From contig CACBQR010000008.1 of the NCBI GenBank assembly GCA_902541435.1, positions 1 to 41,649 of the forward strand: a DNA stretch of 41,649 nt, read 5' to 3'. The position numbers and the translations under genes are program-made. Shown here one piece after another: positions 1 to 31,104 of the stretch. The DNA is from an uncultured Alphaproteobacteria bacterium. Its GTDB lineage: Bacteria > Pseudomonadota > Alphaproteobacteria > HIMB59 > GCA-002718135. Numbering within the stretch: the first letter of the stretch is position 1; every line of letters begins with the position of its first letter. Below the pieces are notes generated by a model. It was not told the DNA's origin. It saw nothing but the letters and a program-made list of their open reading frames with translations, and ran no database searches.

Positions 1-630
1 AACTGCAACAAATTTATTTGTTTCATTGAATATTTGAAAAAGAGCCTTTTGCATATTGATGTTTTTTTTATAAGTTTTCAAACCTTCTTCAGAAAATATA
101 GGGTGCGAAGCTTTGTGAACAATTTCAGAAATTTTATTAGAATTTTTAAAATTATCTAGATCAGCAACACATTTAATATTTTTTTTATTGGTATTAATAG
201 CAATATAAGAGGCCATATCTATCCATCTCATATCTATTGAATAAATATCCTTTTTTTTAAAATTTAATTTGGGTATTTTCTTATAATCAAGTAGTTTTGG
301 ATCATTGTATGCTGCTAGTAATCTTTCACCTTTTGTATCCTCAATTACAAAGCTTTGCGAAGACTGACATTTTTTAATAAAAATTGATTTACTAGTATTA
401 ATAGAAAATTTTTTTAATTCATTTTTTAAAAAGTCTGATGAATCATCATCTCCAAATTTTCCTATGAATTTTGATTCAGAGCCCAAAATTTTTGCAGTAA
501 ATGCAGATACTGCTGCTGAACCACCTAATCTTTTATCAATACCTCTAGATAAAACTTTAATTGGTTTTTTTGGAAATTTATTAATCCTACTTATGTAATC
601 TGTAAATATTGATCCTGCGCAAATGATCAT
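1..630 (-). CDS. PfkB/ribokinase-family sugar kinase, C-terminus truncated by the window edge; resembles YihV-type sulfofructose kinase
   Basis: Hand translation from the ATG at 630 is open to position 1: MIICAGSIFTDYISRINKFPKKPIKVLSRGIDKRLGGSAAVSAFTAKILGSESKFIGKFGDDDSSDFLKN...SQSFVIEDTKGERLLAAYNDPKLLDY...SIDMRWIDMASY...HPIFSEEGLKTY. PfkB N-terminal GGSAA and GKFGDD signatures. Not in the ORF track because it runs off the edge. Confidence 0.85.
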   Translation of the reverse strand, partial: MIICAGSIFTDYISRINKFPKKPIKVLSRGIDKRLGGSAAVSAFTAKILGSESKFIGKFGDDDSSDFLKNELKKFSINTSKSIFIKKCQSSQSFVIEDTKGERLLAAYNDPKLLDYKKIPKLNFKKKDIYSIDMRWIDMASYIAINTNKKNIKCVADLDNFKNSNKISEIVHKASHPIFSEEGLKTYKKNINMQKALFQIFNETNKFVAV

Positions 631-640
631 AAAATATTAA

Positions 641-1210
641 TTAAAGGTATTTAACTTTACCAATAAACTTTCTAAACCTATCTCTTATAGTTATAGGATT
701 GAGTGGAATGGGATCAATTTTAACATTTCCAGAATTGATCTTTGAAATTATTACATATGAATTATCTTTATCATCAATGGCTTTGTTCAATTCATTAACT
801 GTTTCCTCGCCAGAACATTCAACCACATTTTTGCAGCCAGCTCCTAATGCAACATCCTTCAAGGAAGTTTTCTCATCAGTAAATGTTCGTTGATCTCCTG
901 TTGATCCATAAGAACCATTATCAATTATCAATAAAGTATAGTTTGATGGCGCTCTATTACCTATTGTTGCTAGGGTATTCATATTCATTAAAACTGATCC
1001 ATCACCATCTATACTAATAACGTGTTTATTTTGGGATAGTGCCAAGCCTAAGCCAATAGAAGATGATAAGCCCATACTGCCTAACATATAAAAAAAATTT
1101 GGTTGATCACTAATTTTATATAATTCTTGAGATGGAAGACCTATATTACAAATAACTAAGTTATCTTTAAGAATATTTTGTACCTTATTTAATAAATCAA
1201 AACGGTTCAT
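641..1210 (-). CDS. comE: Sulfopyruvate decarboxylase beta subunit-like TPP enzyme (ComE family)
   Basis: TPP-binding motif GDGSVLMNMNTLATIGNRAPSNYTLLIIDNGSYGSTG; 189 aa; ATGA overlap with the upstream ComD-like gene. Confidence 0.8.
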   Translation of the reverse strand: MNRFDLLNKVQNILKDNLVICNIGLPSQELYKISDQPNFFYMLGSMGLSSSIGLGLALSQNKHVISIDGDGSVLMNMNTLATIGNRAPSNYTLLIIDNGSYGSTGDQRTFTDEKTSLKDVALGAGCKNVVECSGEETVNELNKAIDDKDNSYVIISKINSGNVKIDPIPLNPITIRDRFRKFIGKVKYL

Positions 1211-1707
1211 TTATCATCTTTCATTAAATTGAAATCACATAAAATAGCTACCGGTGATTCAACAACTTTGGCATGTTTGCTAAATGTTGAAATTTTATTT
1301 AATTCTTTTTCAGAAGAGCAATGCAACATAGGTATTCTCAACGTTTGTAAAATATCTTCAGTAATCTTCGCCATTCCACCTTGCGCTCCTACTGGCTCAC
1401 CAGGTGTACCCCTGTAACTAATTAAAAAAACAACAGGCATTTGATATAATTGTAATAGAGAAACAATTGCATTCACTGAATTTCCAATCCCTGTATTCTG
1501 CATCATTATACACGGGAATTTATTTCCTAAATAAGCTCCAGCACAAATACCCATACCTTCTTCCTCTCTTGGTACAGCCGAATAATAAACATCTTTATCA
1601 TTTTCAAGAATATCAATCATGTTGGCTAATAGCTTACAAGGAACACTTAAGTAAAAATCTACTCCACCTTTTTTTAAATTATCTATGATTTTTTTACTGA
1701 TTTTCAT
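1207..1707 (-). CDS. comD: Sulfopyruvate decarboxylase alpha subunit-like (ComD family)
   Basis: 166 aa TPP pyrimidine-domain protein with the conserved glutamate region (VPREEEGMGICAGAYLGN) and QNTGIGNSVNAIVSL; translationally coupled to comE. Confidence 0.8.
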   Translation of the reverse strand: MKISKKIIDNLKKGGVDFYLSVPCKLLANMIDILENDKDVYYSAVPREEEGMGICAGAYLGNKFPCIMMQNTGIGNSVNAIVSLLQLYQMPVVFLISYRGTPGEPVGAQGGMAKITEDILQTLRIPMLHCSSEKELNKISTFSKHAKVVESPVAILCDFNLMKDDK

Positions 1708-1753
1708 TTATGCGGATGTCTATAGATATAAAATTATAAAACAATAAATTAAT

Positions 1754-2806
1754 TTATTTAAAATCATTTCTTAATTTTATTTTTGTATTTGAATTATATG
1801 TTTCGCCTACTTTTAATATAGTTGATGGAAAATTTGGTTGATTAATAGCATCTGGAAAAATTTGCGTCTCTAGACACATACCATATTGTAATCCATAATT
1901 ACGATTATGTTTGCCATGATATGAATCTTTCATCATATTACCAGTATAAAATTGTATTCCAGGTTGATCAGTCGAGTATTCAACTCCCATACCAGTAATA
2001 TTACTGTAGATGGAAGCTATAGATTGATCAATAGAATAATCTTTGAGAACATAATTGTGATCAATACCACCGCCATCTAAAAAAGATTTATTTATTTCAA
2101 ATGAATTATTAAGATCATATTTTGTATTAACTACATCGAATAGTTTACCAGTAGGAATTGATCCCTCATCAGTTTCGCAAATTTGATTAGATGATATTCT
2201 TACAACATGGTCAGTAATATTTTTATAATTATCTTTATGGCCATGGAAATTCCAATAGTTATGATTAGTCATATTAACAATAGTATCTTGATCTGTTGTA
2301 GCATTAAAGGAAATTAGAATTTCGTTATTATTATTAAGTTCGTAAATAGTTTTACAATTTAGGTTGCCTGGATAATTTTCTTCTAAATGTTTAGACTGGT
2401 AAGTGAGCTCTACTTTTATACTTTGGCTTGTTTTTTTAATATCAGCTATTTTCCAAATCTTTTTATTAAAACCTACCTCTCCACCATGAAGATGATCAGG
2501 TTCAGTATTAGAATATAAATTATATTCTTTCCCATTGAGAGTAAATTTACTTTGCCCTATTCTATTACAAACTCTTCCAATAATTGAATTGAAATATCCA
2601 TGAGCTTCCAAGCAATCATCTAAATTACCATAACCTAATAAAACATCCTCTGTTTCAGAGACATTCGAAGAAGTTGGAATACAAACTTCACTCATATAAC
2701 CACCATAAGTATAAAAACTAAAACTATAATTGTTTGAGTTAATAATATTAACTATGTCAATATCTAAACCTTTATCATTTTGAAGTTTGGTAATTTTATA
2801 TTTCAT
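1754..2806 (-). CDS. galM: Aldose 1-epimerase (GalM family)
   Basis: GRVCNRIGQSKFTLNGKEYNL, HLHGGEVGFNKKIW, NHNYWNFHG, GIDHNYVL, FYTGNMM and CLETQIFPDAINQPNFPS are classical GalM motifs. Confidence 0.9.
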   Translation of the reverse strand: MKYKITKLQNDKGLDIDIVNIINSNNYSFSFYTYGGYMSEVCIPTSSNVSETEDVLLGYGNLDDCLEAHGYFNSIIGRVCNRIGQSKFTLNGKEYNLYSNTEPDHLHGGEVGFNKKIWKIADIKKTSQSIKVELTYQSKHLEENYPGNLNCKTIYELNNNNEILISFNATTDQDTIVNMTNHNYWNFHGHKDNYKNITDHVVRISSNQICETDEGSIPTGKLFDVVNTKYDLNNSFEINKSFLDGGGIDHNYVLKDYSIDQSIASIYSNITGMGVEYSTDQPGIQFYTGNMMKDSYHGKHNRNYGLQYGMCLETQIFPDAINQPNFPSTILKVGETYNSNTKIKLRNDFK

Positions 2807-3705
2807 TATATTTTCCTTAATCTTTGAAAATCATTTTTTCTTTGTTGAAGATAAATGATTAATCCACCTAAAACTATGAAAAAAGCACCTGGGAAAAGTT
2901 GATCAACTGGCCATTCTGCAAAAAATATCCAACCTAAAATAAGTGCAAAAAATATCTCGATATAATCAAATGGCATAATTTTACTAAGTTCTGCTTTTCT
3001 TGCACCATATATTAAAAGTAAAGTTCCAGATCCTCCTGCAATCCCCATGACACAAACTACTAAGAAATCATTTATACTTTTAAAATTTTCCCACATACCA
3101 AAAAACATTACTAACATACATGCAACGATGATTGTCCCTGTTTGACCGTATAAGTTAATAAGTGGTGAAGGAACATGATCCTCAAAACTTAAAGAAGTTA
3201 CTCTTGCTAATGAATATCCCAAAGCTGCAAGTATAGGAAGTAGTAACATATAATTAAAATCTGATGACCAAGGTTGCATAATTAAAACGATACCTGCAAA
3301 ACCAGAAATTACTGCACTCATTTTGTACCAACCAAATTTTTCACCTAGTATAGGAATAGCAAGAAGAGTAACCATCATAGGTCCTGTGTATTCCATGGTA
3401 GCGACTAAAGCAAATGGGAGGTAAGCATAAGAAGTGTAGAGACATAATTGAGCCAATGCTACAAATACTCCACGGAATAATCCTAGCTTCCATTGTGTTA
3501 TTTTTATTTGTCTACCGTTTCGATGCCAATCTTGTGAGAAATATAGAGCAATAACACATGGGATCATCCCAAATAAATTTCGAAAAACAGAAAGTTGAGC
3601 TGCTGGATAGTCATTTCGCAAAAACTTTATCGCAATCCCCATACAATCCAATAAAAACAAACCTGAAAGTGATAATATAACAGCTAAAAATAAATTATTT
3701 TTCAT
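2806..3705 (-). CDS. EamA/DMT-superfamily permease
   Basis: About 10 hydrophobic helices, two EamA-like repeats, 299 aa. Confidence 0.85.
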   Translation of the reverse strand: MKNNLFLAVILSLSGLFLLDCMGIAIKFLRNDYPAAQLSVFRNLFGMIPCVIALYFSQDWHRNGRQIKITQWKLGLFRGVFVALAQLCLYTSYAYLPFALVATMEYTGPMMVTLLAIPILGEKFGWYKMSAVISGFAGIVLIMQPWSSDFNYMLLLPILAALGYSLARVTSLSFEDHVPSPLINLYGQTGTIIVACMLVMFFGMWENFKSINDFLVVCVMGIAGGSGTLLLIYGARKAELSKIMPFDYIEIFFALILGWIFFAEWPVDQLFPGAFFIVLGGLIIYLQQRKNDFQRLRKI

Positions 3706-3718
3706 TAATCATAGTCTA

Positions 3719-4777
3719 TTATTCTAAAATAATTTCTTTTCCTATTTCTTGACTTTTATAGATTCCATCTAAAATTTTCATTACTTGTAGAGAGTGTTCA
3801 GCCGGAATAGTAACTGGTTGATCGTTTGCAACAAACTCTGCAAACTCGATACATTCTTTGGCATGAGGTTCAATAGTGTCTTTTAAATTTCCTTCAATTT
3901 TTTTAGTTATGTGAGTTTGAGAATTGATATCATTTTTTATAATCTCACAATTAGGCCAATGCAAACCAGCTTCTCTTCCGTATAACCATACCTGCATATC
4001 TTCTATTTTATCTTCTGGTAGTTTATGATGAAGCATCCATGATACTTCAAGCATCAAGGTTGCACCATTTTTAAACCTAACAAACGCAGCTGCAAAATCC
4101 TCAACGTTCATTGCTTCCTTATCGTACTCTCCATTGTAACTAAAAGAATTTGGCTGCTTTGCTAATTCTGTTTTTGACACACCCGTCACAGAAAGTGGTT
4201 CTGGATTGTTCATAAACCAAAGAGTTAAATCTAATACGTGCACCCCTATATCAATACAAGGCCCTCCTCCTGAATTTTCTTTTTTTAAAAAACCAAGTGA
4301 GACTGGTAAAAAATTTCTTCTAAGCATCCAAGAGCGTGCATGATATATCGAACCAATTGATTTGGATTGATCTTTTATTAATTGAGAATCTTTTCTGAAC
4401 CTAAAGTGTTGAGCACACATTAATTTTTTTTTCGTTTGATCTCTTACTTCAATCATTTTTTTTATTTGTGAGGCATTTGGAGCTAAGGGTTTTTCACATA
4501 AAACATCTTTGCCTGCTTGCATTGCTTTAATTGCTAAATCACAATGATAGTTATTAGGCGCACAAATATCTATTACATCTATATCTGGATCATTAATCAT
4601 ATCTAAGGGATCAAGATATAATTTTTTTATTTGATTTATATTACCCCAATCTTCAAGAATAGAATTATTAATATCGGAACCTGCTATTAATTCTGCATGT
4701 TCTGACATGCGCCAACCAGGTACATGTAACTTTGCAATGCCACCGACGCCAATAATGCCAACTTTTATTTTACTCAT
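3719..4777 (-). CDS. Gfo/Idh/MocA-family NAD(P)-dependent oxidoreductase
   Basis: N-terminal Rossmann VGIIGVGGIAKLH, CEKPLA motif, GGGPCIDIGVHVLDL. Confidence 0.9.
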   Translation of the reverse strand: MSKIKVGIIGVGGIAKLHVPGWRMSEHAELIAGSDINNSILEDWGNINQIKKLYLDPLDMINDPDIDVIDICAPNNYHCDLAIKAMQAGKDVLCEKPLAPNASQIKKMIEVRDQTKKKLMCAQHFRFRKDSQLIKDQSKSIGSIYHARSWMLRRNFLPVSLGFLKKENSGGGPCIDIGVHVLDLTLWFMNNPEPLSVTGVSKTELAKQPNSFSYNGEYDKEAMNVEDFAAAFVRFKNGATLMLEVSWMLHHKLPEDKIEDMQVWLYGREAGLHWPNCEIIKNDINSQTHITKKIEGNLKDTIEPHAKECIEFAEFVANDQPVTIPAEHSLQVMKILDGIYKSQEIGKEIILE

Positions 4778-4793
4778 AATTATATTTTTTAAT

Positions 4794-5783
4794 TTAGATA
4801 TTTATCCATTTTTTTTCTTTTTCTGATTGGTAAATTGATTCCATTATACTACTTCTCAATGCTGCTTCTGTAGGAGTAACTAGGTTTTTAGTATTGTTAT
4901 CATTTAATGAGTTGAGAAACAAATCAAATGCATGTGGTAATGTTTCTGGTAAATTTTCTTCTATTCTTTCTATTTTTTTACCTTCCTTATTTTCATTTAT
5001 AATTAATTGCTCATTAGTTGTTCTTGCGTGAGCTTTTGTACCGCTTACAAAAATAGTGTATGGCTGCGCTACATCTATCCATCCCGCAGCAATACTAGCT
5101 ATCAACCCACTTTTAAATTTTATCAAAGCTTCTCCACTTTCTTCACAATCTGGATATTGATTATATACTTTTGTAAAGGTTGCGCTCACTGACTCAACAT
5201 CAGAAAAAAACCATAAAAGAAGATCTAAAACATGTGTTCCTAAATCACCAAAAGCTCCAACGCCTGCAACCTTAGGATCTGTCATCCATTGATAGTTTTT
5301 GAAAATATCCCTCATAAGACCATCGTGACAATTAATGAGTCGAATTCTTGAAATTTCGCCAAAATAATTATCAGTGATTAATTGTTTAAGCTTTATGTAA
5401 ACAGGATTGCTTCTCATGAAATATCCAGTTTGAAAAATAATTTTTGAAGACTCAATAAGATTTGCCATTTCAAAAGAGTCTTTTTTTCCTATACCCAAAG
5501 GTTTTTCTATAAAACAGTGTTTTTTATTCTCGGTAATTTTTTTAACTAATTCATAGTGCAAATTAGTTTCTGAACATACTATAACACCATCTAAATTAGG
5601 TTCTTTCAATAAATCAACATAGTTATCATAATTCTTACATTGCAGTTTATCAGAATCAATTTTTGACCTATTCTTGTCTTTGTCCCAAACACCAATACAA
5701 TTAATTTTAATGTTTGAAATTACCTTAGAAATAAAATTTGGTGTATGAATATGAGAGGTTCCAATAAATGCTATATTTTTCAT
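4794..5783 (-). CDS. Gfo/Idh/MocA-family oxidoreductase (second)
   Basis: IEKPLG motif, GVGAFGDLGTHVLDLLLWF; Rossmann N-terminus. Confidence 0.9.
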   Translation of the reverse strand: MKNIAFIGTSHIHTPNFISKVISNIKINCIGVWDKDKNRSKIDSDKLQCKNYDNYVDLLKEPNLDGVIVCSETNLHYELVKKITENKKHCFIEKPLGIGKKDSFEMANLIESSKIIFQTGYFMRSNPVYIKLKQLITDNYFGEISRIRLINCHDGLMRDIFKNYQWMTDPKVAGVGAFGDLGTHVLDLLLWFFSDVESVSATFTKVYNQYPDCEESGEALIKFKSGLIASIAAGWIDVAQPYTIFVSGTKAHARTTNEQLIINENKEGKKIERIEENLPETLPHAFDLFLNSLNDNNTKNLVTPTEAALRSSIMESIYQSEKEKKWINI

Positions 5784-5801
5784 TACAGTTATAAAAACTA
5801 C

Positions 5802-6788
5802 TTATAGAGCACAACACTGATCGACCCAGTGACCTGGTTCAACTTCAATAAGGCCCATTTTTATTTCTCCACCTTTGCAATCTACTCCAGGATTAGGACA
5901 TCTGGTTCTAAATACACAACCTGGAGGTGGATTTAATGCACTAGGAATTTCTCCCTTTAGTTCTATAGCTTCAGATCTTTTCTCTGGATCAATTGATGGA
6001 ATAGAAGATAATAGTGCCTTTGTGTAAGAATGTTTTGGATTCTTAAATAATTCTCTTGAGGGTCCCATTTCAACAATGTGCCCCAAATACATAACTGCAA
6101 CAACGTCACATACATGAGCTACTACACTTAAATCATGACTTATGAATAAATAAGTTAAGTTAAGCTCGGTTTGAAGTTGTTTTAAAAGATTTAATATATC
6201 TGCTTGTATTGATACATCTAAAGCAGCAACACTTTCGTCTGCTACTATAAATTTTGGATTACTTACTAAGGCTCTTGCAATTGATATTCTTTGTCTTTGT
6301 CCTCCAGAAAATGCATGAGGAAATCTTCTTAGGTGCTCAATATTTAATCTACATTTTGAAGCAATGTCTCTTACTCTTTCATCAGTTTCTTGTCTTGAGT
6401 TTGTTATTTTCATCACTTCTAAAGGCTCTGCAATAATATCCCTCACTGTCATTCTTGGACTTAAAGCAGCATAAGGATCTTGAAAAATTAATTGAGCTTT
6501 TTTTCTATATTCTTTTAAATCTTGTTTGTTCATATCTGTTAAATCATAATCTCTTTCATCGTCATGAAAAATAACATTTCCAGAACTAATTTTATTAGCT
6601 CCAAGTATTGCTCTACCAAGAGTAGTTTTTCCTGAACCAGATTCACCCACTAAACCAAAAAAAGATCCTTTTTTAATTTTGATATTGATATTGTTTACAG
6701 CATGTATTTTTTGTTTTTTTGAAATAAAATTTTCTTGATAATCAAAATTTACTGAAACATTATTTACTGAAATTAAATTATCACCCAT
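5802..6788 (-). CDS. oppF: ABC transporter ATP-binding protein, oligopeptide/dipeptide type (OppF/DppF)
   Basis: Walker A GESGSGKTT, signature SGGQRQRISIARAL, Opp/DppF C-terminal GCVFRTRCP. The ORF track extends to 6842, but the internal start MGDNLISVNNV at 6788 is more likely. Confidence 0.9.
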   Translation of the reverse strand: MGDNLISVNNVSVNFDYQENFISKKQKIHAVNNINIKIKKGSFFGLVGESGSGKTTLGRAILGANKISSGNVIFHDDERDYDLTDMNKQDLKEYRKKAQLIFQDPYAALSPRMTVRDIIAEPLEVMKITNSRQETDERVRDIASKCRLNIEHLRRFPHAFSGGQRQRISIARALVSNPKFIVADESVAALDVSIQADILNLLKQLQTELNLTYLFISHDLSVVAHVCDVVAVMYLGHIVEMGPSRELFKNPKHSYTKALLSSIPSIDPEKRSEAIELKGEIPSALNPPPGCVFRTRCPNPGVDCKGGEIKMGLIEVEPGHWVDQCCAL

Positions 6789-7770
6789 TTTGACCACACT
6801 TAATTCCACATTGATCAACCCAGTGACCTGGTTCAACTTCAATTAGTTTCATTTCTATTTTACCATCTTTTCCTTCTGGATTATGATGGGGGCATCTAGT
6901 TCTAAATACACACCCTGTTGGTCTATCTAATGGACTTGGAATATTTCCAGGTATTGGAGATAACGGCGCGTCTAAGTTATTTATGTCAGGTAAAGCTTGT
7001 AATAGCCCTTTTGTATAAGGATGTTTTGGGTTTTTAAGGATCTCATTTACTGGACCTTTCTCCACTACACTTCCCAAATACATAACCGCTACATGATCAG
7101 CGACCTGTGCAATAACACCTAGATCGTGAGTAATAAATATTACTCCCATTTGATATTCTTTAATAATATCTTTAATTAGGTTAATTACTTGAGCTTGAAT
7201 TGTTACATCTAAAGCAGTTGTTGGCTCATCTGCTAATAAAAGTTTAGGCATTGTTGATAGTGCCATAGCTATCATTGCTCTTTGACGCATTCCCCCAGAT
7301 AATTCAAATGCATATTGATTAAACCGTTTTTCTGCATCTGCTATGCCTACTCTTTTTAGCATGTTTATGGATATTGATTTTGCTTCCTCTTTATTAATAT
7401 TTTTATGAATTAGTAATTGCTCAACCATTTGTGCGCCAATTTTTATTGCCGGAGCAAAACTTGCCATAGGCTCTTGAAAAATCATTGATACTTTACCACC
7501 TCTTATTTTTTTTAAGTCTTGCTTAGAGGTAAATTGAAGAACATTTTCGTTGTCTAAAATTATTTCTGCGTCTTCATTATAAGAAGTATTACCTGGATTT
7601 AATTTCATAATCGATTTAGCAGTCACAGATTTACCTGATCCGGATTCACCAACTATACCAAGTACTTCACCTTGATCTACAGAAAGAGAGATATTTTCAA
7701 CTGCAGTAATTCTACCTTCATCAGTATCAAATTTTACATCTAAATTTTTTACTTCTAATAAATGACTCAT
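6781..7770 (-). CDS. oppD: ABC transporter ATP-binding protein, oligopeptide/dipeptide type (OppD/DppD)
   Basis: Walker A GESGSGKS, SGGMRQRAMIAMAL, C-terminal GCVFRTRCP. Confidence 0.92.
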   Translation of the reverse strand: MSHLLEVKNLDVKFDTDEGRITAVENISLSVDQGEVLGIVGESGSGKSVTAKSIMKLNPGNTSYNEDAEIILDNENVLQFTSKQDLKKIRGGKVSMIFQEPMASFAPAIKIGAQMVEQLLIHKNINKEEAKSISINMLKRVGIADAEKRFNQYAFELSGGMRQRAMIAMALSTMPKLLLADEPTTALDVTIQAQVINLIKDIIKEYQMGVIFITHDLGVIAQVADHVAVMYLGSVVEKGPVNEILKNPKHPYTKGLLQALPDINNLDAPLSPIPGNIPSPLDRPTGCVFRTRCPHHNPEGKDGKIEMKLIEVEPGHWVDQCGIKCGQNG

Positions 7771-7771
7771 A

Positions 7772-8932
7772 TTATTTTACCTTATGAGGATCTGCTGCAT
7801 CACGTAATCCATCCCCTACATAGACAAATGTTAAAATTAATACGACTAAGAAAAATACAGGAATAAAATACCATTGATAGTTTAAAAGTACGTCGGCCTT
7901 TGTTGCATTTTGTAAAAGTACACCTAGAGAGTTTACAGGTTCTCTCAAACCAAGTCCTATAAAACTTAAAGCTGTTTCAGATAATAACATGTATGGGAAA
8001 CTAATGACTAAATCGACAATAATATAGCTCGTGAAACTTGGTAACAAGTGTCTTATAATAATGTGAGTAGATGATGCTCCACAAAGTTTTGCAGCAAGAA
8101 TATATTCTTGGCTTCTTTCACTAAGTAGATGCGTTCTTACTCTTCTAGCAAGTGTTGGCCATGAAATTAATCCAAGTAAACAGGAAATAAAAAAGAACCG
8201 TAATTCAGAACTCCATTCTAATGGCGCAAAGGCAGCAAGACACATAAACAGAGGTATTGGCGGAACCGTTCGAATTGCATCAGTAAACATTTGCAATACA
8301 CTATCAATCCATCCACCATAGTAACCTGATATTCCACCTATAATTAAGGATAGTACAAATGATATAAAAACACCAAGTGTCCCTACAGCTAGTGAAATAT
8401 AAATTGCACTCAAGGTTCTGCTAAATAAATCTTTTCCTGCCTTATCTGTTCCAAATATATGAATACCACCTTCTTCAACTCCAAATAAATGAGTATTAAA
8501 TGTAAAACCTGGAATTTTAAAATCTAAAATTTTTCCTGGAAGATTTATATTAAAATCAAAAACTTTATACTCCCAACCTTCAACAAAAAAATAAACATAT
8601 CTTCTTTTTTCTGTATCAGTTTTATAGACCCATCTAAAATTAGTATCAGCTCCTCTATATTTTGTTAAAGTGTGTAAAAACGGCCTTGGTGAAAAACCAT
8701 TTTCATCCCAAAACATCGGAACCTGAGGTGCTCCATTTTCATAATCTTTGTCGCGACCATTAATAGTCGGATCATATGGAGATAAAAAATCTGAGAATAG
8801 ACTACAAACAATCATGAAAAGTAATATTGAACCTGCAATCATTGCCGATCTATTTCCAAAAAAGCGTGTTCTTACTAATTGCATCTGTGTAGCTGTATAA
8901 TAAGCTTCTTTTTTTTGATTACTAACCTCCAC
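7772..8932 (-). CDS. oppC: ABC transporter permease (OppC/DppC type) with a large insertion between TM1 and TM2
   Basis: HIFGTDKAGKDLFSR and EYILAAKLCGASSTHIIIRHLLPS (EAA loop). Confidence 0.9.
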   Translation of the reverse strand: MEVSNQKKEAYYTATQMQLVRTRFFGNRSAMIAGSILLFMIVCSLFSDFLSPYDPTINGRDKDYENGAPQVPMFWDENGFSPRPFLHTLTKYRGADTNFRWVYKTDTEKRRYVYFFVEGWEYKVFDFNINLPGKILDFKIPGFTFNTHLFGVEEGGIHIFGTDKAGKDLFSRTLSAIYISLAVGTLGVFISFVLSLIIGGISGYYGGWIDSVLQMFTDAIRTVPPIPLFMCLAAFAPLEWSSELRFFFISCLLGLISWPTLARRVRTHLLSERSQEYILAAKLCGASSTHIIIRHLLPSFTSYIIVDLVISFPYMLLSETALSFIGLGLREPVNSLGVLLQNATKADVLLNYQWYFIPVFFLVVLILTFVYVGDGLRDAADPHKVK

Positions 8933-9935
8933 CCATAACTCCTTTTCTTATTCTTGGATCCATTATTGCTAAAATTATATCTGTAACAAAATTAACAAAA
9001 ACGATTGTTGCTGTAAGTAAAAATATTATTGCTCCAGCTAGTTGCTGATCATTTGATCTAGCCAAAGCTTCTATTAACAAAGCTCCTGCCTCAGTCAAAA
9101 TTAAAATCAGAGCAACTATTGGAAGTGCACTAAAAATTCTATTTAAATCAAATCCTATTGAATTTATTACAGGTCCTAAAGAATGCTTTGCTGGATATCG
9201 CCAAAGCAAACTCATCCCTGATACACCTCTTGCCCTTGCCGCCATTACATACAACTTATCATTTTCATCTAACATTAAAGCTCTGACAGTTTGCAATGCA
9301 AAGGCAGTTGCATTCCATCCTAAAACAAAAATAGGCAACCATGCTCTACCTAAAAAATCCATTAACTTTGCTGATGACCATGGTTCATTTTCATATTCTT
9401 GAGAAAATAATCCTGTCATCGTATCTCCATAATAGATTGTCATAAAAAGCATTATACAAAGTGCCACTAAAAAATTTGGCAATGCTATGCCAAGGTAACT
9501 AACAAACTTTAGAGTGTTATCTAATGATGCATATTTTGTCGTGGCTGAAATAATTCCTACCGGTATAGCAATTAAATATGAAAATATTAATGCTACTAAA
9601 CATATGGTTAGAGATAAAGTAAATCTTCCACTTAATAATTCATTAATATTCATTCTTAGAATACAACTATCACCAAAATCTTGATTGATAACAATGTCAG
9701 AAATCCACTTTCCATATCTATAAAGGAATGGTTTATCTAAGCCTAAGCGAATTTTTTCTGCTTCAATATCTTCATAAGTAATTTGAGAGCCCTGAGTATT
9801 TTTAAAAGCTAAATATCTTTCAGCACACGTTCCAGGTACTAATTCCATTAAAGAAAAAACTATGAAACAAACAATTAATAAAGTTACAATAGCTAAAAAT
9901 GCTCTTGTAAATGTAAACTGAACAAAATTAATCAT
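8922..9935 (-). CDS. oppB: ABC transporter permease (OppB/DppB type)
   Basis: LGLDKPFLYRYGKW, EAA-loop-like YVMAARARGVSGMSLLWRYPAKHSLGPV. Confidence 0.9.
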   Translation of the reverse strand: MINFVQFTFTRAFLAIVTLLIVCFIVFSLMELVPGTCAERYLAFKNTQGSQITYEDIEAEKIRLGLDKPFLYRYGKWISDIVINQDFGDSCILRMNINELLSGRFTLSLTICLVALIFSYLIAIPVGIISATTKYASLDNTLKFVSYLGIALPNFLVALCIMLFMTIYYGDTMTGLFSQEYENEPWSSAKLMDFLGRAWLPIFVLGWNATAFALQTVRALMLDENDKLYVMAARARGVSGMSLLWRYPAKHSLGPVINSIGFDLNRIFSALPIVALILILTEAGALLIEALARSNDQQLAGAIIFLLTATIVFVNFVTDIILAIMDPRIRKGVMGGG

Positions 9936-9979
9936 AGCATGATTTCACTTAATTGATTTTTAAGAATAGTAGAAAAAAG

Positions 9980-10008
9980 AAAAGCGGCAATAAAAAATTG
10001 CCGCTTTT
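9980..10008 (-). terminator. Strong hairpin with T-rich tail (on the minus strand) between oppA and oppB
   Basis: Perfect 12-bp stem aaaagcggcaat / attgccgctttt with 5-nt loop; the minus-strand 3' side continues as ctttttt. Confidence 0.8.
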
Positions 10009-10027
10009 AAGTATATTTATAGTTGAC

Positions 10028-12082
10028 TTATTCGTCTAACCACCACTGAGTAGCTAAATATGGATAAGTTCTATAATATTCATAAGAAGTTGTTTTGAAT
10101 TGTGTAAAGTTTTTCAAAGCATTTCTATGATATGTTGGGAAAGGTGCTTTTACAGTTCCAATTAACAAAGTTTGCTCTGTTAACATTGTTGTAATTTTTT
10201 CACCCCACTCATTTGATTCAGGTGTACCTAAAGCATATGATTGAAATTTATCAATACCATCACTTAAATCGTAAACCCATTGAGGAGGCTCTACACCTTC
10301 ATCACCGTTACTATCAATGTAAGCTGCCCACAACATTCCTTGCGTATGGTTAAAGTAGTTTCCAAAAGGCGCTTTGAATGTTTCAGGATCACCTGCAATA
10401 ATTGCTAATGGTTGACCTTTATCCCATGCATGGACATCTAATGCATTTGAAGATTGTGAACCACGATATTCATCAGGAGTTACCTCTTTAAAAGAAGTTT
10501 TAACTCCTACATCGTTCCACATACGAGCAACTAACTCAACTTCTACACCACCTATACCTTGAGTAGCATAGTCAATGTTCATAGCAAAAGGCTCTCCGTT
10601 AGGGAGTTCTCTAAAGCCATCACCGTCAACGTCCTTAAGGCCAACTTCGTCTAGAAGTGCTTTAGCACCATCTGGATCATATTGAGTCATATACATTTTC
10701 ATATCTTCACGTACGAAATCAGGAGCTGGTGACATACCTGTGAACTGCTCTACAACACCCATACCATAGTAAGCAACATCGTTAATTTCATTTCTATCTA
10801 GAGCAATTGACATTGCTTGACGGAAACGAATATCACCGTAAACTTTACGTTTTTCTAAGTCTGGGTGAGTGACGTTGAAGCTAAATAGTGCTGCTCCACA
10901 ACCAGGGTTAATTTGAATATTATAGCCTCCAGACTCTGCTCCATCTAATAATTGAGGTGCAGACTCAAGTTGTACAGATTGAGATTTGTAATCAACTTCA
11001 CCATTAACAAGTTTCAATAATCTTATTTCATTTTCATTGATATATCTCTCATTTTGATAGTCAATGTATGGTAATTGATTCCCAGCTGTATCAACTTGGA
11101 AAAAGTATGGGTTTGCAGCATATACTCTACCTTCAGTAGTATCTTCAATAGTCATGTAAGCTTCCAAAGAAGGATAAGCAGCATATGGTAAACCATCTAC
11201 TAACTCTGGATTTCTTAATAACGGAGTTGGAGTATCAGTCCAACCTGAGTTACCATAATAAGCCGCTAAAGCATCCCAGCCATCTGCGAAACCTAAAGCT
11301 TGTGCATTCGCATCAGCATTTGAATCAATTTCTGGATGGAATTGTTCTAGGAAATGTGAAGGCATAAAAGCTTGGTTATAAGATGTAGCTAAAGTAGCAA
11401 GTAAACCAGGAAACGGAGATGGTAAGTTAAATCTTACTGTTTGATCATCAATTACATCAACAGTCATTGGCTCACCACCAACTAATAGATATGGATATGG
11501 TTTTTCACGAATCTTTGGATTCATCATCAAGTCTTCGTACCAAAACTCTACATCTCTGGCTACAAAAGGTTCACCATTTGACCACTTGTGACCTTTACGT
11601 AACATGAATGTTAAAGTAGTAAAATCATCATTCCATTCATAATCTTTTGCAACATTTGGAACTACAGTTGACAAGTCATCAGCAAAACGAACTAAGTTAA
11701 CATGTCGAGTAGAAAGCATGTCTGAAGTACCAGCTTCAGTTGCATTAGATAAGAAATTAATAGTGTTTCCATATTTACCAATTGATTCATATGGCACTAC
11801 AACAAGTGGTTCATCAGGTAATCTATCCTCAACTGGAGGTAGGCTTCCTGGGTTCCCTTGAATTGTTGCATTAATACTTGCAATACTTGGGTTCTCTGAA
11901 AACTTCATCGCACAACTTGCTGCACTTTCGTATTCTGATAACTCATATTGCTGTGGATATTTTCCGCCAGTATATGCATCGCTCATGGTTGAGCCTACGC
12001 AATGACCGCCTGCAAAAGAGCTTCCACTCCATACAAACATTGCGGAAGAAAATACCAATGCTACGAGTATTTTTTTTAACAT
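10028..12082 (-). CDS. oppA: ABC transporter substrate-binding protein, family 5 (peptide/oligosaccharide type)
   Basis: Signal peptide MLKKILVALVFSSAMFVWSGSSFA from the internal ATG at 12082, preceded by GGAGAAAATAT; SBP5 motifs LRKGHKWSNGEPF and FRQAMSIALDRNEI. The ORF track start at 12148 would put a non-signal extension in front. Confidence 0.9.
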   Translation of the reverse strand: MLKKILVALVFSSAMFVWSGSSFAGGHCVGSTMSDAYTGGKYPQQYELSEYESAASCAMKFSENPSIASINATIQGNPGSLPPVEDRLPDEPLVVVPYESIGKYGNTINFLSNATEAGTSDMLSTRHVNLVRFADDLSTVVPNVAKDYEWNDDFTTLTFMLRKGHKWSNGEPFVARDVEFWYEDLMMNPKIREKPYPYLLVGGEPMTVDVIDDQTVRFNLPSPFPGLLATLATSYNQAFMPSHFLEQFHPEIDSNADANAQALGFADGWDALAAYYGNSGWTDTPTPLLRNPELVDGLPYAAYPSLEAYMTIEDTTEGRVYAANPYFFQVDTAGNQLPYIDYQNERYINENEIRLLKLVNGEVDYKSQSVQLESAPQLLDGAESGGYNIQINPGCGAALFSFNVTHPDLEKRKVYGDIRFRQAMSIALDRNEINDVAYYGMGVVEQFTGMSPAPDFVREDMKMYMTQYDPDGAKALLDEVGLKDVDGDGFRELPNGEPFAMNIDYATQGIGGVEVELVARMWNDVGVKTSFKEVTPDEYRGSQSSNALDVHAWDKGQPLAIIAGDPETFKAPFGNYFNHTQGMLWAAYIDSNGDEGVEPPQWVYDLSDGIDKFQSYALGTPESNEWGEKITTMLTEQTLLIGTVKAPFPTYHRNALKNFTQFKTTSYEYYRTYPYLATQWWLDE

Positions 12083-12226
12083 ATATTTTCTCCTATAAGA
12101 TAAATTTATCGTATGTATTTTTTTTATACAAATTTGAGCTTTTAGCAAAAATAATTGACAAATTTATTACGTTTTTTTTTAAAAAATTGTGTATTTCTTT
12201 TTAATTACTTTAGTATTTTGTAGAAT

Positions 12227-13762
12227 ATGAAGAAAATCAAAAAATCTGTACTTTTTATATGTGCTGATCAGTGGCGCTTCGATTGCTTTAGTTTTTTAAA
12301 TCATGAATATGCTCTCACTCCTAATTTGGATAAATTAGCAAAAAAAAGTGTTATTTTTAAATCACACTTTGCAGGTATTGTTCCATGTGGTCCTTCGAGA
12401 ACTACAATGCTCACTGGTTTATATCCATTTATACATCGCTCAGTATATAATGGTGCTCCACTTGATAAAAGATTTACAAATATTGCTAAAGAAGCTCGAA
12501 AATTAAATTTCAATCCAAGACTTTACGGATACACTGATACTTCTTGGGATCCAAGATACTTGGATCCAAAAGATAAAAAAAATTTTACCTATGAATCACC
12601 AATGGAAGGGTTTGATGATGGTTGTGTTTTACCAGGAGGAAAACCGGAGCTTTGGGCTAACCATCTTAATCAAAATGGTTTTGAAATTAATAAAGCAGAA
12701 GATTTGTACAAAGGAAGAAAGCCTAAAGATGATCAAGCGTATATTTATGAACCATATTATATTCCAACTGAATTTTCAGACACCGCATTTTTAGCAGACA
12801 AAGTTGTTAACGATTTAAAAAAAGTCAAAGATCCATTTTTTATGCATGTATCTTTTTTAAAACCACACCCGCCCTTTCATATAGCTGATCCATGGTTTAG
12901 TAAATTTAATCCAGATAATATTAATTTATCTAAAAATAATATTTCACTTAAAGAATTATCAAAAAAACATCCTCTACTTGAAGAGTTATGCAAAAAATTT
13001 TTATTAAAAGAAAATTTCTCTGAAATTAATTATGATCTTTTAAAAGATCAAGACATCAAAAATATTATGAGTGTCTATTTTGCTATGTGTGCAGAAGTTG
13101 ATTTTAATATTGGTAAAATTTTAAATGCTCTGAAAGAATCAGGGCAAGAAGAGAATACAATGATAATATTTACCAGTGATCATGGAGAAATGTTAAATGA
13201 AAATAATTTATGGGGAAAATTAGGTTGGTGGGACTCCTCTTATAGAATTCCATTATTCATATATGTCCCTCAAAACAATCCAAAAAAAATTAACCACTTA
13301 ACAGAATCGGTAGATGTTGCTCCTACAATTTTAGAATGGCTTGGTGGTGAAATCCCCATTGATTGGAATGGTCAGTCACTAATGCATAATATTTACGATC
13401 AATATGAAAAATCACCTAATAAAGAATTTGTTGTTTTTGATTATGATTTTAGAGAAAGCACTGAATTTGTTAAAGATAAAAAATTAGCACCCGAGCAATG
13501 CAATCTATCAGTTATTAGAAATAATAAATGGAAATATGTTCATTTCCCTTCATTGCCATGTTTATTGTTTGATTTAGAAAATGATCCTAATGAAATCAAT
13601 GATTTATCTAGAGTAAAAGAATTTCAAGATATTAAAAATGATTTAGTATCAAAACTATTAAGCCACCGAATGATTCATCAGGAAAGACAGTTATCTAATA
13701 CAAAACTTTCTAGCTCAGGGGTTAAAACAAAATCTGGACCAGCTAGCAGAAAAATGGGATAA
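12227..13762 (+). CDS. Alkaline-phosphatase-superfamily sulfatase / phosphonate monoester hydrolase-like protein
   Basis: Metal site FICADQWRFD, formylglycine-type motif CGPSR, FTSDHGEMLNENNLWGKLGWWDSSYRIPL, C-terminal RNNKWKYVHFPSLPCLLFDLENDPNEINDL. Confidence 0.88.
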   Translation: MKKIKKSVLFICADQWRFDCFSFLNHEYALTPNLDKLAKKSVIFKSHFAGIVPCGPSRTTMLTGLYPFIHRSVYNGAPLDKRFTNIAKEARKLNFNPRLYGYTDTSWDPRYLDPKDKKNFTYESPMEGFDDGCVLPGGKPELWANHLNQNGFEINKAEDLYKGRKPKDDQAYIYEPYYIPTEFSDTAFLADKVVNDLKKVKDPFFMHVSFLKPHPPFHIADPWFSKFNPDNINLSKNNISLKELSKKHPLLEELCKKFLLKENFSEINYDLLKDQDIKNIMSVYFAMCAEVDFNIGKILNALKESGQEENTMIIFTSDHGEMLNENNLWGKLGWWDSSYRIPLFIYVPQNNPKKINHLTESVDVAPTILEWLGGEIPIDWNGQSLMHNIYDQYEKSPNKEFVVFDYDFRESTEFVKDKKLAPEQCNLSVIRNNKWKYVHFPSLPCLLFDLENDPNEINDLSRVKEFQDIKNDLVSKLLSHRMIHQERQLSNTKLSSSGVKTKSGPASRKMG

Positions 13763-13769
13763 TTAATTT

Positions 13770-14819
13770 ATGTTAACAACTGTTATAGGCGCCTACCCAA
13801 AACCAAGTTATTTAAAATTAACTGATTGGTTTAATGCTTCTGGTGGTACAGATACTGAATATCCAACTAAATTTTACGAAGATGAAATAAATAAGATGGG
13901 CGATAATGTTGAAGAGTTATTTAATGAAGCTACCAAAGAAATAATTAGTGATCAGGAAGAATGCGGTATTGATATCCTAACAGATGGTGAAGTTAGAAGA
14001 GAAAATTATATTCACTATCATTGTAGATATTTAGAAGGAATTGATTTTGCAAATCTGACAGAAAAAGTTGCAAGGACAGGGAATTATAAATGCTGGTTAC
14101 CAACAATAACTGCAAAAGTTAAAGCAAAAGAATCTTTTTTAGTCGAAGAGTGGAAAAAAAATCAGAGTTTAACAAATAAAGATTTAAAAATTACTATTCC
14201 TGGACCAATGACTATAACAGATACCATAGCAAATATATTTTATGATTCAGATGAACATATGGGTGAAGACTTAGCTGATGCTATTAATGTAGAAATTAAA
14301 AGATTGGTTGATGCAGGATGTAAATATATTCAAGTCGATGAACCGTTGTTTGCTAGAAAACCAGAAAATGCTCTTAATTTTGGAATCAAAAACCTAGAAA
14401 GATGTTTTAAGGATATTAATAATCAAAGTATTGAAAAAATTACTCATATTTGTTGCGGCTATCCTGATAAATTAGATGCAGTAGATTATCCAAAAGCGCC
14501 TTTAGATTCTTACAGTAAAATTAGTAAAGCTTTAGATGAGTCAATTATGGATACCGTTTCTATTGAAGATGCTCATCGATATAATGATTTAAATTTTTTA
14601 AAAGATTTTAAACAAACAAAAGTTATTTTTGGTTTAGTAAAAATAGCAAGCTCTCAAGTAGAGTCTAAAGAAGAAATTGTCTCGAGAATAAATGATGCAT
14701 TAAAGTTTATTGATAAGGAACAATTAATTGTTGCTCCTGATTGTGGCCTTGGTCACTTACCTAGAGATTTGGCAAAAATAAAATTAAAGATAATGGTAGA
14801 AGCTTCTAATAGTTTTTAG
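13770..14819 (+). CDS. MetE C-terminal-domain-like protein (cobalamin-independent methionine synthase family)
   Basis: TVIGAYPKP start, DGEVRRENYIHYH, IPGPMTITDT, QVDEPLFAR, THICCGYPDKLD, VAPDCGLGHLPRDLA; carries the Zn-ligand-like HxC and C pattern. Confidence 0.85.
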   Translation: MLTTVIGAYPKPSYLKLTDWFNASGGTDTEYPTKFYEDEINKMGDNVEELFNEATKEIISDQEECGIDILTDGEVRRENYIHYHCRYLEGIDFANLTEKVARTGNYKCWLPTITAKVKAKESFLVEEWKKNQSLTNKDLKITIPGPMTITDTIANIFYDSDEHMGEDLADAINVEIKRLVDAGCKYIQVDEPLFARKPENALNFGIKNLERCFKDINNQSIEKITHICCGYPDKLDAVDYPKAPLDSYSKISKALDESIMDTVSIEDAHRYNDLNFLKDFKQTKVIFGLVKIASSQVESKEEIVSRINDALKFIDKEQLIVAPDCGLGHLPRDLAKIKLKIMVEASNSF

Positions 14820-15931
14820 TGTACTAAAGTTTCTGGATTAGCATAATCATAATTTAAATCATCAGCAATAGCTTTATATGTAACGGCACCTTTAAAAATA
14901 TTTAAACCATTCATAAAATTTTTATCATTTTTTAAAGCATCTTTAAAACCATTAGAAGCTAAGTTTTGAATAAATGGCAAAGTGACTGCATTTAAAGCAA
15001 GAGTGGAAGTTCTAGGAACTCCCCCTGGCATATTTGCAACACAATAATGAACAACATCATCAACAACATATGTAGGGTTTGCATGAGTTGTTGGTTTACT
15101 AGTTTCAACACAACCACCTTGATCAATTGCAACATCAACAATTACAGATCCACTTTTCATCTCTTTTATCATGTCCTTAGTTATAATCTTTGGAGCATTA
15201 GAGCCTGGAACAAGTACTCCGCCAATTAGTAAATCACATTCAGAAATATAATCTTTTAGATTTATTTTATCACTATGTAGTGGTTCTATTTTATCACCAA
15301 ATTTTTCTTGTAATTCTTCTAATCTTTTTTCTGATTTATCAACGATGAAAACTTTTGCTTGCATACCTGTAGCAATTATTGCTGCATTTTCTCCAACAAC
15401 ACCTCCACCTAAAATTAATACATTTCCAGGCTGAACTCCAGGTGCGCCACCTAAAAGTAAACCACTTCCACCCTTATGTTTTTCAAGAGAATAAGCTCCT
15501 GCTTGTATCGACATTCTACCTGCTACAGCACTCATTGGTGCTAGCAGAGGTAATTTATTATTATGATCACTTACCGTTTCATAAGCTATACAAATAGAAT
15601 TTGAATCAATTAAACCCTTTGTCAATTCTGGAGCTGCTGAAAGATGTAAATAAGTAAATAAAATTTGGTTTTCTCTTATCATTGCTACTTCATTCATTAG
15701 AGGTTCTTTTACTTTTACGATCATTTCAGAATCATTGAAAACATCTTCAGCGGAATTTACAATTTTAGCACCTGACAATTCATAATCACTATTTGAAAAG
15801 CCAGCTCCAATACCCGCATCCTTTTGGATTAGAACGGTATGTTTATCTTTTACTAATTCTTTAACACTTTGTGGGGTAAGCCCAACTCTGGACTCCTGAG
15901 CTTTAATCTCAGAGGGAACACCTATTTTCAT
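14816..15931 (-). CDS. ald: Alanine dehydrogenase
   Basis: MKIGVPSEIKAQESRVGLTPQSVKEL, LFTYLHLSAAPELT, APMSAVAGRMSIQAGAY, VDVAIDQGGCVETS, PGGVPRTSTLALNAVTLPF. Confidence 0.97.
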   Translation of the reverse strand: MKIGVPSEIKAQESRVGLTPQSVKELVKDKHTVLIQKDAGIGAGFSNSDYELSGAKIVNSAEDVFNDSEMIVKVKEPLMNEVAMIRENQILFTYLHLSAAPELTKGLIDSNSICIAYETVSDHNNKLPLLAPMSAVAGRMSIQAGAYSLEKHKGGSGLLLGGAPGVQPGNVLILGGGVVGENAAIIATGMQAKVFIVDKSEKRLEELQEKFGDKIEPLHSDKINLKDYISECDLLIGGVLVPGSNAPKIITKDMIKEMKSGSVIVDVAIDQGGCVETSKPTTHANPTYVVDDVVHYCVANMPGGVPRTSTLALNAVTLPFIQNLASNGFKDALKNDKNFMNGLNIFKGAVTYKAIADDLNYDYANPETLVH

Positions 15932-17271
15932 TATCTGTCATGCATATAGTTTGAGATACCTGTTCTTAATTTTTCAATTATCTCATCAATATGTTTTTTT
16001 TCACAAGTAAATGGAGGTGCAACAATTAAACAATCACCTGTTGCTTTCAAGCTTAAGCCTGCTTCAAATAATTTTTTAAAACAAGCATATCCAGCTTTGC
16101 CTAAACGCTCATCCATTTTAATGTCAATTCCTCCCATCATTCCATATCCTCTTATATCAGTAATGATATCTAAGTCTTTCAACGAAAATAAACCATCTAA
16201 GAAATATGGAGACATATCCTTTGCTCTATTAAATAAATCTTCTTTCTCGATTATATCTTGCATTGCTAAACCTGCTGCCATTGAAACTGGTATAGCAGAA
16301 TAAGTATAACCATGAAAAAATTCTATAGCTCCTGTAGGTGATGCATCAACAATAGTATCATAGATATGATCACGTGAAGCTACTGCCCCTAAAGGTACAA
16401 CGCCATTAGTAATTGCTTTAGCCATTGTCATGATATCTGGACAAACATCAAAAGCTTGAGCTGCAAATGGAGCACCCATTCTTCCCCAACCAGTAATAAC
16501 TTCATCAAAAATTAAAAGAATTCCGTGTTTGTCACAAATTTCTCTTAATCTTTTTAAATATCCTTTTGGTGGAACTAAAGTTCCTGTTGATCCTGCAACT
16601 GGCTCTACAATACATGCTGCAATATTTTCAGCACCTATGTTACCAGCAATTCTTTCAAGATCATCTGCTAGATCAGCACCTGTTTCAGGTTCGCCTTTTA
16701 CAAATAAATTTTCAGGTAAATGAGTATGTCTTAGATGATGTACATTTGGCATGAGAATATTTGAGAAAGTTTTTCTATTAGCAATCATTCCACCAACAGA
16801 AATTCCTCCAATATTCATTCCATGATAACCTCTTTCTCTTCCTACTATGTGAGATCTATGACCTTCTCCTTTTGCTTTAAAATATGCTATGGCTGTTTTA
16901 ATTGCTGTTTCAACAGCTGACGAACCACAAATAGTAAAAAATATTTTATTTAAATCTTCGGGTGTATGTTTTGAAACTTTTCTAGCTAAATCAAATGAAC
17001 CACCAAAACCTTGTTGAAATGGTTGAACATAATCTAATTGCTCTAATTGTTTTGATACTGCTTCTCTTATTTCTGGTCTTGAATGACCCGCTGGACTACA
17101 AAATAGCCCTGAGCTAGCATCAATTAATTTATTTCCATAATGATCAGTATAATAAACACCTTCTGCCTTAACCATTAATCTTGGACTATTTTTATAATCT
17201 CTATTAGATGTAAATGGCATCCAATGTTCTTCTAATGAATTAGGTATTTCAGTTCTTTTTTCTAAGTCCAT
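15931..17271 (-). CDS. tpa: Class III (omega-amino acid) pyruvate aminotransferase; probable taurine/hypotaurine/beta-alanine:pyruvate aminotransferase
   Basis: HWMPFTSNRDYKNSPRL, FTICGSSAVETAIK, HGILLIFDEVITGWGRMG, MTMAKAITNGVVPLGAV (PLP lysine). Adjacency to ald and pta supports amino-sulfonate use; substrate not provable from sequence alone. Confidence 0.8.
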   Translation of the reverse strand: MDLEKRTEIPNSLEEHWMPFTSNRDYKNSPRLMVKAEGVYYTDHYGNKLIDASSGLFCSPAGHSRPEIREAVSKQLEQLDYVQPFQQGFGGSFDLARKVSKHTPEDLNKIFFTICGSSAVETAIKTAIAYFKAKGEGHRSHIVGRERGYHGMNIGGISVGGMIANRKTFSNILMPNVHHLRHTHLPENLFVKGEPETGADLADDLERIAGNIGAENIAACIVEPVAGSTGTLVPPKGYLKRLREICDKHGILLIFDEVITGWGRMGAPFAAQAFDVCPDIMTMAKAITNGVVPLGAVASRDHIYDTIVDASPTGAIEFFHGYTYSAIPVSMAAGLAMQDIIEKEDLFNRAKDMSPYFLDGLFSLKDLDIITDIRGYGMMGGIDIKMDERLGKAGYACFKKLFEAGLSLKATGDCLIVAPPFTCEKKHIDEIIEKLRTGISNYMHDR

Positions 17272-17321
17272 TTTTTTCCTTATTAAAGATTGAGTATATG
17301 AAATTATAGATAAATCAAAGA

Positions 17322-17347
17322 ATATTTCTTACACAATAAAGAAATAT
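17322..17347. promoter_or_regulatory. Interrupted perfect inverted repeat between divergent tpa and pta; candidate operator
   Basis: atatttctt-acacaata-aagaaatat (9-bp arms, 8-bp spacer). Confidence 0.4.
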
Positions 17348-17389
17348 CATAGGAAAAATTGTAGCAGTGGTATAGAGAGAATATCAAAT

Positions 17390-18289: not shown

Positions 18290-18312
18290 TTAGAAAATAA
18301 ATTTTAGCTCGA

Positions 18313-28924: not shown

Positions 28925-28927
28925 CTT

Positions 28928-29899: not shown

Positions 29900-29937
29900 T
29901 TTAAGAAAAATTATATTTTATGCATTTTTAATGAATA

Positions 29938-29957
29938 TTATTCAAAATATTGAATAA
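29938..29957. promoter_or_regulatory. Perfect inverted repeat in the bicupin/SnoaL divergent intergenic region; candidate operator
   Basis: ttattcaa-aata-ttgaataa (8-bp arms, 4-bp spacer). Confidence 0.4.
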
Positions 29958-30007
29958 ATCAATTAAATATTGAGCCTAAGCTGTGAGTAACTGAAACTAA
30001 GTAAATT

Positions 30008-31102: not shown

Positions 31103-31104
31103 TT

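Follow-up and report, generated by a model that had tools for sequence, protein, structure and literature searches.

A predicted sulfoquinovose operon in a HIMB59/AEGEAN-169 marine alphaproteobacterium that probably joins sulfoglycolysis to ComDE and Xsc

The stretch of DNA analysed here (the window, 41,649 bases) is the entire contig G000:C8, 1-41649, from the 1.2 Mb, 75% complete genome of an uncultured alphaproteobacterium (G000); its first base is the contig end. Homologous contigs are found in marine single-cell Alphaproteobacteria genomes, including that of Pelagibacteraceae bacterium AG-337-I02, and AG-337-I02 is the genus name used for the AEGEAN-169 marine group of the order HIMB59, a lineage once called SAR11 clade V (PMC8692485; PMC12965618). 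The subject of this report is the operon at the left end of the window, which reaches from an Opp-type importer to a PfkB-family kinase gene cut by the contig end, and which an earlier note (the original prediction) took for a sulfosugar uptake and degradation operon. Its genes are as follows:

1-630, minus strand: PfkB-family kinase, predicted YihV-like 6-deoxy-6-sulfofructose kinase, cut by the contig end (PDB match and tree; about 302 aa in relatives)
641-1210, minus strand: comE, predicted sulfopyruvate decarboxylase beta subunit (TIGR03846)
1207-1707, minus strand: comD, predicted sulfopyruvate decarboxylase alpha subunit (TIGR03845; ATGA overlap with comE)
1754-2806, minus strand: galM-family aldose 1-epimerase, probable sulfoquinovose mutarotase (PF01263, E 5e-69)
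2806-3705, minus strand: EamA-family transporter (PF00892)
3719-4777, minus strand: Gfo/Idh/MocA oxidoreductase 1, DgpA-like glycoside 3-dehydrogenase, optional cassette (PDB matches)
4794-5783, minus strand: Gfo/Idh/MocA oxidoreductase 2, optional cassette (PF01408)
5802-6842, minus strand: oppF, ABC transporter ATPase (open reading frame and gene order)
6781-7770, minus strand: oppD, ABC transporter ATPase (open reading frame and gene order)
7772-8932, minus strand: oppC, ABC permease (Opp4C model, 230 bits, under cut-off)
8922-9935, minus strand: oppB, ABC permease (Opp2B/Opp4B models, under cut-off)
10028-12148, ATG start at 12082, minus strand: oppA, family 5 solute-binding protein of the oligosaccharide-binding branch (PF00496, E 3e-53)

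The tight same-strand run that had been described is what the sequence contains: all twelve genes lie on the minus strand in the order oppA, oppB, oppC, oppD, oppF, Gfo/Idh, Gfo/Idh, eamA, galM, comD, comE, kinase, with intergenic distances of -62 to +92 bp (mostly 0-50), and both the ATGA coupling of comD to comE (a 4 bp overlap) and the 10 bp spacing between comE and the kinase were read as claimed. The TTG start of oppF at 6842 is likely wrong, and an internal ATG at about 6788 is probably the real one. By curated cut-offs comD and comE are predicted to encode the sulfopyruvate decarboxylase subunits: ComE scores 223.7 bits with TIGR03846 (cut-off 221.5) and 134 bits with the phosphonopyruvate decarboxylase model (cut-off 312), and ComD scores 160.8 bits with TIGR03845 (cut-off 147.95). 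The galM product falls under the cut-off of the galactose-1-epimerase model, and galM adjoins comD in every homologous locus that reaches that far.

The kinase has YihV (7ag6) as its best PDB sequence match (E 2e-24, 89.8 bits; second-best 47 bits). A maximum-likelihood tree of 14 YihV-clade members and eight other PfkB kinases (seven E. coli PfkB-family members and one IolC-like; ribokinase, FruK, PfkB, KdgK, PsuK and YdjH are among them) places it inside the YihV clade with support of 100/100, and the inner fork with YihV itself has 82/81. We take K27, N109 and R138 of YihV to be its sulfonate-binding residues; every one of the 14 clade members has equivalents of K27 and R138, which the eight other kinases all lack, and they are kept in 92 of 92 copies of the kinase. 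The SQS, DTKGER, MRW and FSEEGL motifs quoted in the original prediction are all there and align with E. coli YihV. A kinase in a non-sulfo PfkB clade with unrelated genes downstream had been named as the outcome that would speak against a sulfosugar operon, and the opposite was found, namely the YihV clade and, in relatives, sulfosugar-type genes downstream. The original prediction's reading of the operon is largely right, with sulfofructose as the predicted substrate of the kinase.

What follows the kinase beyond the contig end was read from 64 homologous loci of the same genus (HIMB59/AEGEAN-169), 53 of them found via one scan and 11 more divergent ones drawn from whole genomes. The run galM-comD-comE-kinase plus the next gene recurs in 59/64 loci, more often than chance would allow, the remaining ones all or nearly all being cut by contig ends, and 55/64 have a seven-gene block in which galM, comD, comE, the kinase and a 2-hydroxyacid dehydrogenase gene share one strand, and a third Gfo/Idh gene and an L-fucose-isomerase-like gene stand opposite and convergent; most of the loci outside these 55 are likewise cut short. 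A second 2-hydroxyacid dehydrogenase gene was seen in a single locus (1/64). The third Gfo/Idh protein matches the GH188 structures 8qc2/8qc8 at 355 bits and 8qc3 at 347, with 8zn9 following at 325 and the best non-SqgA protein outside these three at 106. In ArSqgA sulfoquinovose (SQ) is bound by the sulfonate-contacting R166, L170 and K172 and the catalytic E189 and H193, K107 being a further catalytic residue (PMC10755693), and all six are kept in every copy checked; this protein is by its sequence a predicted GH188 NAD-dependent sulfoquinovosidase. The isomerase-like protein matches the NCBIfam SftI model NF048012 over its full length (285 bits, E 8e-85). The 2-hydroxyacid dehydrogenase has 37-40% identity to SlcC-type enzymes and 28-32% to SerA (BLAST), and a deep tree gave no clear order. 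Its best plasmid matches are encoded with transporter genes on one side and an Ldh-family (ComC-like) gene on the other, and in Paracoccus aestuarii, P. seriniphilus and Methylobacterium oryzae two UxaA-family (SuyA/SuyB-like) genes stand beside such dehydrogenases; we regard it as an SlcC-like, putative (S)-sulfolactate dehydrogenase. Of the genes that the original prediction wanted looked for past position 1, the isomerase is thus present in relatives, together with the SlcC-like dehydrogenase and the GH188 protein, and the operon of the window's subclade contains no sulfofructose-1-phosphate (SFP) aldolase or sulfolactaldehyde (SLA) dehydrogenase.

These genes travel together. In a sample of 151 relatives (91 of them in the window's genus) the kinase was found in 58 genomes, every one within the genus, and all of the 55 genomes that have GH188 also have the kinase; in the three kinase-only genomes, which include the window's own, the coordinates, as far as they go, put the kinase close to the end of a contig. 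Among 385 alphaproteobacterial genomes sampled for independent lineages, an unrelated alphaproteobacterium found via the isomerase (G164) has a single operon for the kinase, a LacD-type aldolase, SftI, GH188, GalM, a GabD-type dehydrogenase, an SlcC-like dehydrogenase, ComD, ComE and a solute-binding protein; its Xsc gene lies outside this operon. Two more genomes (G258 and G362) have the kinase-to-GabD genes in the G164 order, plus Xsc, and the Zymomonas mobilis plasmid pZZM402 (NC_013785) carries genes for a class II aldolase, GalM, SftI, GH188, a succinate-semialdehyde dehydrogenase (SSADH) and the kinase. By predicted function these independent gene sets correspond to the steps that lead from an SQ glycoside to sulfoacetaldehyde, and the operons are the strongest evidence that comDE would serve a sulfosugar route; the complete G164 operon, with Xsc in its genome, backs the link from sulfosugar to ComDE and Xsc that the original prediction had drawn. 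They also bear on whether the locus could be a plain operon for a neutral sugar or a uronate, with a thiamine pyrophosphate-dependent decarboxylase, a kinase and an isomerase that only look like sulfo enzymes. PfkB, GalM, Gfo/Idh and FucI folds are indeed common in sugar operons and several of the matches are under equivalog cut-offs, but a meeting of five sulfo-specific families at this locus, repeated in unrelated genomes, is not credible as chance, and we give this explanation almost no weight.

Separately, on a Cereibacter sphaeroides plasmid (L194, 4567-8888) the gene of a YihV-clade kinase that retains K27 and R138 stands next to those of an aldolase and a succinate-semialdehyde-dehydrogenase-like protein. 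This is a possible unrecognised sulfosugar operon, and kinases related to this one are found on Rhizobium plasmids.

Sequence comparison establishes the predicted identities and the linkage of GH188, the SftI-family isomerase, the YihV-clade kinase, ComDE, the SlcC-like dehydrogenase and Xsc, and from these we infer the substrate and direction of the pathway. The operon is very probably the near half of an SQ catabolic locus in which sulfo-Embden-Meyerhof-Parnas (sulfo-EMP) glycolysis is joined to SlcC, ComDE and Xsc, so that SQ would be mineralised in one cell. SQ glycoside would be taken up by the Opp-type ABC importer and opened to SQ by the GH188 NAD-dependent sulfoquinovosidase (past the contig end in relatives), GalM would interconvert the SQ anomers, the SftI-family isomerase would turn SQ into sulfofructose, and the YihV-like kinase would phosphorylate this to SFP. 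An aldolase would then split SFP into dihydroxyacetone phosphate (DHAP) and S-sulfolactaldehyde, the latter would be oxidised to S-sulfolactate, the SlcC-like dehydrogenase would make sulfopyruvate, ComDE would decarboxylate it to sulfoacetaldehyde, and Xsc would release sulfite and acetyl-phosphate. Three genes farther along the window concern the lower part of this route:

17390-18289, plus strand: phosphate acetyltransferase, Pta-type (PRK08190, 307 bits, cut-off 282)
31105-32424, plus strand: HpsN, sulfopropanediol (DHPS) 3-dehydrogenase (PDB HpsN 8v35, 397 bits)
36656-38425, minus strand: xsc, sulfoacetaldehyde acetyltransferase (TIGR03457, 953.9 bits, cut-off 676.4)

The predicted Pta-type enzyme can convert the acetyl-phosphate made by Xsc, and Xsc is present in 32 of the 39 kinase-bearing genomes common to both samples. 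A biosynthetic HisD at 31105-32424 was ruled out, as histidinol dehydrogenases score at most 259.5 bits there against the 397 of HpsN 8v35.

Several findings weigh against this pathway. GH188 was not detectable in the window's own, 75% complete genome, presumably because the contig stops inside the kinase gene. The SftI-model score of 285 is far from the equivalog cut-off of 700, and the isomerase is called a family homologue and not an equivalog. A LacD-type aldolase gene (265 bits to 8tnf, 66 bits to YihT) stands beside the isomerase gene in one subclade of the genus, where its product would cleave SFP; searches found it in six genomes of the genus only, five of them with the kinase, and it was rejected as a general feature of the genus. 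In the window's subclade it is neither at the locus nor detected in the genomes, and SFP is probably cleaved there by the class II FbaA (G000:C27). Another class II aldolase of 276 aa in the same genome was rejected for this step; its gene adjoins an IolB-like gene and, in G070, an IolC-like gene as well, and because of these neighbours it probably belongs to an inositol cluster. The SLA dehydrogenase is likewise not linked to the operon in the window's subclade. There is a GabD in the window's genome (G000:C23), encoded apart from the operon and nearest to ordinary SSADH, for which reason it was rejected as a dedicated SLA dehydrogenase, and HpsN is possible for this step, but the characterised enzyme, CpHpsN, is R-selective and sulfoglycolysis yields S-SLA (PMC11382572). 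SLA would be oxidised by GabD or another dehydrogenase.

An unlinked SLA dehydrogenase would also suit a sulfosugar route that stops before Xsc, with sulfolactate or DHPS excreted and ComDE working in a different pathway, for DHPS/sulfolactate or cysteate (HpsN, Xsc), that only shares the sulfonate island; DHPS by itself could feed HpsN and Xsc, which are encoded in the window some 30-36 kb away from the kinase. We consider this unlikely. In 59/64 loci the genes from galM through comD, comE and the kinase to slcC show translational coupling or come close to it, SlcC and ComDE close the complete SQ operon of the unrelated G164, and it would be hard to see why ComDE should be co-transcribed with the kinase if the two acted on different substrates. 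The last adverse point is in the kinase: at least 90 of the 92 copies have Ala where YihV has N109. This suggests an altered pocket and leads to the idea that the same enzymes act on a different sulfosugar, such as sulfofucose, sulforhamnose or an SQ-containing oligosaccharide that is not SQ-glycerol. The likeness of OppA to oligosaccharide binders and the optional DgpA-like cassette, which hints at varied glycosides, point the same way, but the SQ-reading GH188 residues are fully kept, the kinase falls in the clade of sulfofructose kinases and the isomerase fits the family of SQ isomerases, and the described sulfofucose route is of the Entner-Doudoroff type and lacks these enzymes (PMC12421959), which makes another substrate improbable. 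SQ mineralised by way of SlcC, ComDE and Xsc is the reading that we retain.

A second possible sulfosugar-like cluster is present in the same genus (L187, G022:C7, 3417-12336; L188, G060:C10, 8094-17055), with DhaK/DhaL-like genes (by eye), a 320-aa LacD-type aldolase, a distant SftI/FucI-like isomerase and a protein that comes close to the sulfolactaldehyde 3-reductase model, with 303 bits for a cut-off of 348.

The upstream half of the operon is more variable. PDB neighbours of OppA are 5ipw, SPH1118, a periplasmic alpha-galactoside-binding protein and a chitin-oligosaccharide-binding protein; the importer appears to be swappable, since in G061 a different ABC system precedes the same core. 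The window's two Gfo/Idh genes occur as a pair in 31/59 loci and are missing from the same 28/59. The original prediction had called for comparing them with GH188-type sulfoquinovosidases, and they were rejected as such: the GH188 residue motif is absent from both, the best PDB matches of the first are DgpA1 9m3d (182 bits) and DgpA (174 bits), with GH188 8qc2 at 32.7 bits, and a PDB sequence search gave no close relative of the second. The DgpA-like protein suggests a possible role in opening particular glycosides. We consider it reasonably likely that the whole forms a tandem sulfo-EMP/SlcC-ComDE-Xsc pathway in a streamlined ocean bacterium, its sulfosugar part present in at least 58 of the 91 genus genomes, with an Opp-type importer and an optional glycoside oxidoreductase pair that widens the range of SQ glycosides. 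The EamA transporter possibly exports an intermediate or sulfite. In the window's genome a TauE/SafE-like membrane protein (by eye; L170, G000:C1, 2903-3637) is a candidate sulfite exporter.

A PehA-like sulfatase/phosphoester hydrolase gene (12227-13762) is divergent from oppA and is its neighbour in relatives too, and one sulfosugar locus (L061, 17482-19460) has next to it a sugar ABC transporter together with genes for a sulfatase and a formylglycine-generating-enzyme-like protein, the neighbouring module being swapped between subclades. Genes for an omega-aminotransferase (AptA), alanine dehydrogenase and the phosphate acetyltransferase (14816-19170), taken with xsc (36656-38425), resemble a taurine or similar amine-sulfonate route; hpsN stands beside genes for duplicated SnoaL-like and cupin proteins (27953-32424), and two genes for proteins with only the MetE C-terminal domain (13770-14819 and 26815-27945) adjoin sulfur-compound genes.

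Billions of tons of SQ, a sulfosugar of plants and algae, are produced each year, and its breakdown is usually described as having two tiers, one bacterium excreting DHPS or sulfolactate and another mineralising it. If the pathway proposed here is true, full SQ breakdown appears to take place in one small, abundant open-ocean bacterium, a job so far thought to take two bacteria, and sulfolipid carbon would flow directly into this widespread genus, which would release sulfite, the excreted intermediates being bypassed. A winter peak of the genus has been reported at Blanes Bay and Bermuda (PMC8692485), and AEGEAN-169 genomes have sugar transporters without a known route into glycolysis (PMC10308909), for which the pathway may supply a function. 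A 2026 survey of aquatic SQ pathways covers six described ones and leaves HIMB59/AEGEAN-169 unmentioned (PMC13372026), and our literature search, of limited coverage and so uncertain as to priority, found no description of this joining of modules or of SQ use by the group. All of the enzyme families are already known; what seems to be new is that the modules are joined and that they occur in this lineage.

In the sulfo-EMP pathways of the Escherichia coli yih operon and of Arthrobacter (YihS, YihV, YihT, then YihU or SlaB) a mutarotase and a YihV-clade sulfofructose kinase are found as here, SFP cleavage to DHAP and SLA would be the same, and Arthrobacter likewise uses GH188; in the present locus an SftI-family isomerase replaces YihS, a LacD-type, a class II or no dedicated aldolase replaces YihT, and the C3 product would be led into SlcC, ComDE and Xsc and not excreted. 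The likeness to the GH188 enzyme SqgA (PMC10755693), with all SQ-binding residues, belongs to the relatives' gene past the contig end, and the window's two Gfo/Idh proteins differ. The hybrid pZZM402 cluster has GalM, SftI-family, GH188, YihV-clade kinase, class II aldolase and SSADH genes as in the SQ gene sets, but ComDE and SlcC are not annotated on the plasmid and it has major facilitator superfamily and TonB transporters in place of the Opp ABC system. Alphaproteobacterial mineralisation of DHPS and sulfolactate (HpsN, SlcD or SlcC, ComDE, Xsc; PMC11382572) shares the steps from sulfolactate through sulfopyruvate and sulfoacetaldehyde to acetyl-phosphate and sulfite, and HpsN and Xsc are in the window; that pathway is fed by external DHPS, whereas here comDE is built into the sulfosugar operon. 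A sulfoglycolytic and a mineralising pathway within one bacterium have been called unusual (PMC12421959, 2025), and the tandem sulfofucose pathway of Paracoccus wurundjeri described there likewise lets one cell both cleave a sulfosugar and mineralise the sulfonate, and it too has SlcC; it differs in its substrate, in its Entner-Doudoroff-type upper part and in ending with the SuyAB lyase, where the locus described here would end with ComDE and Xsc.

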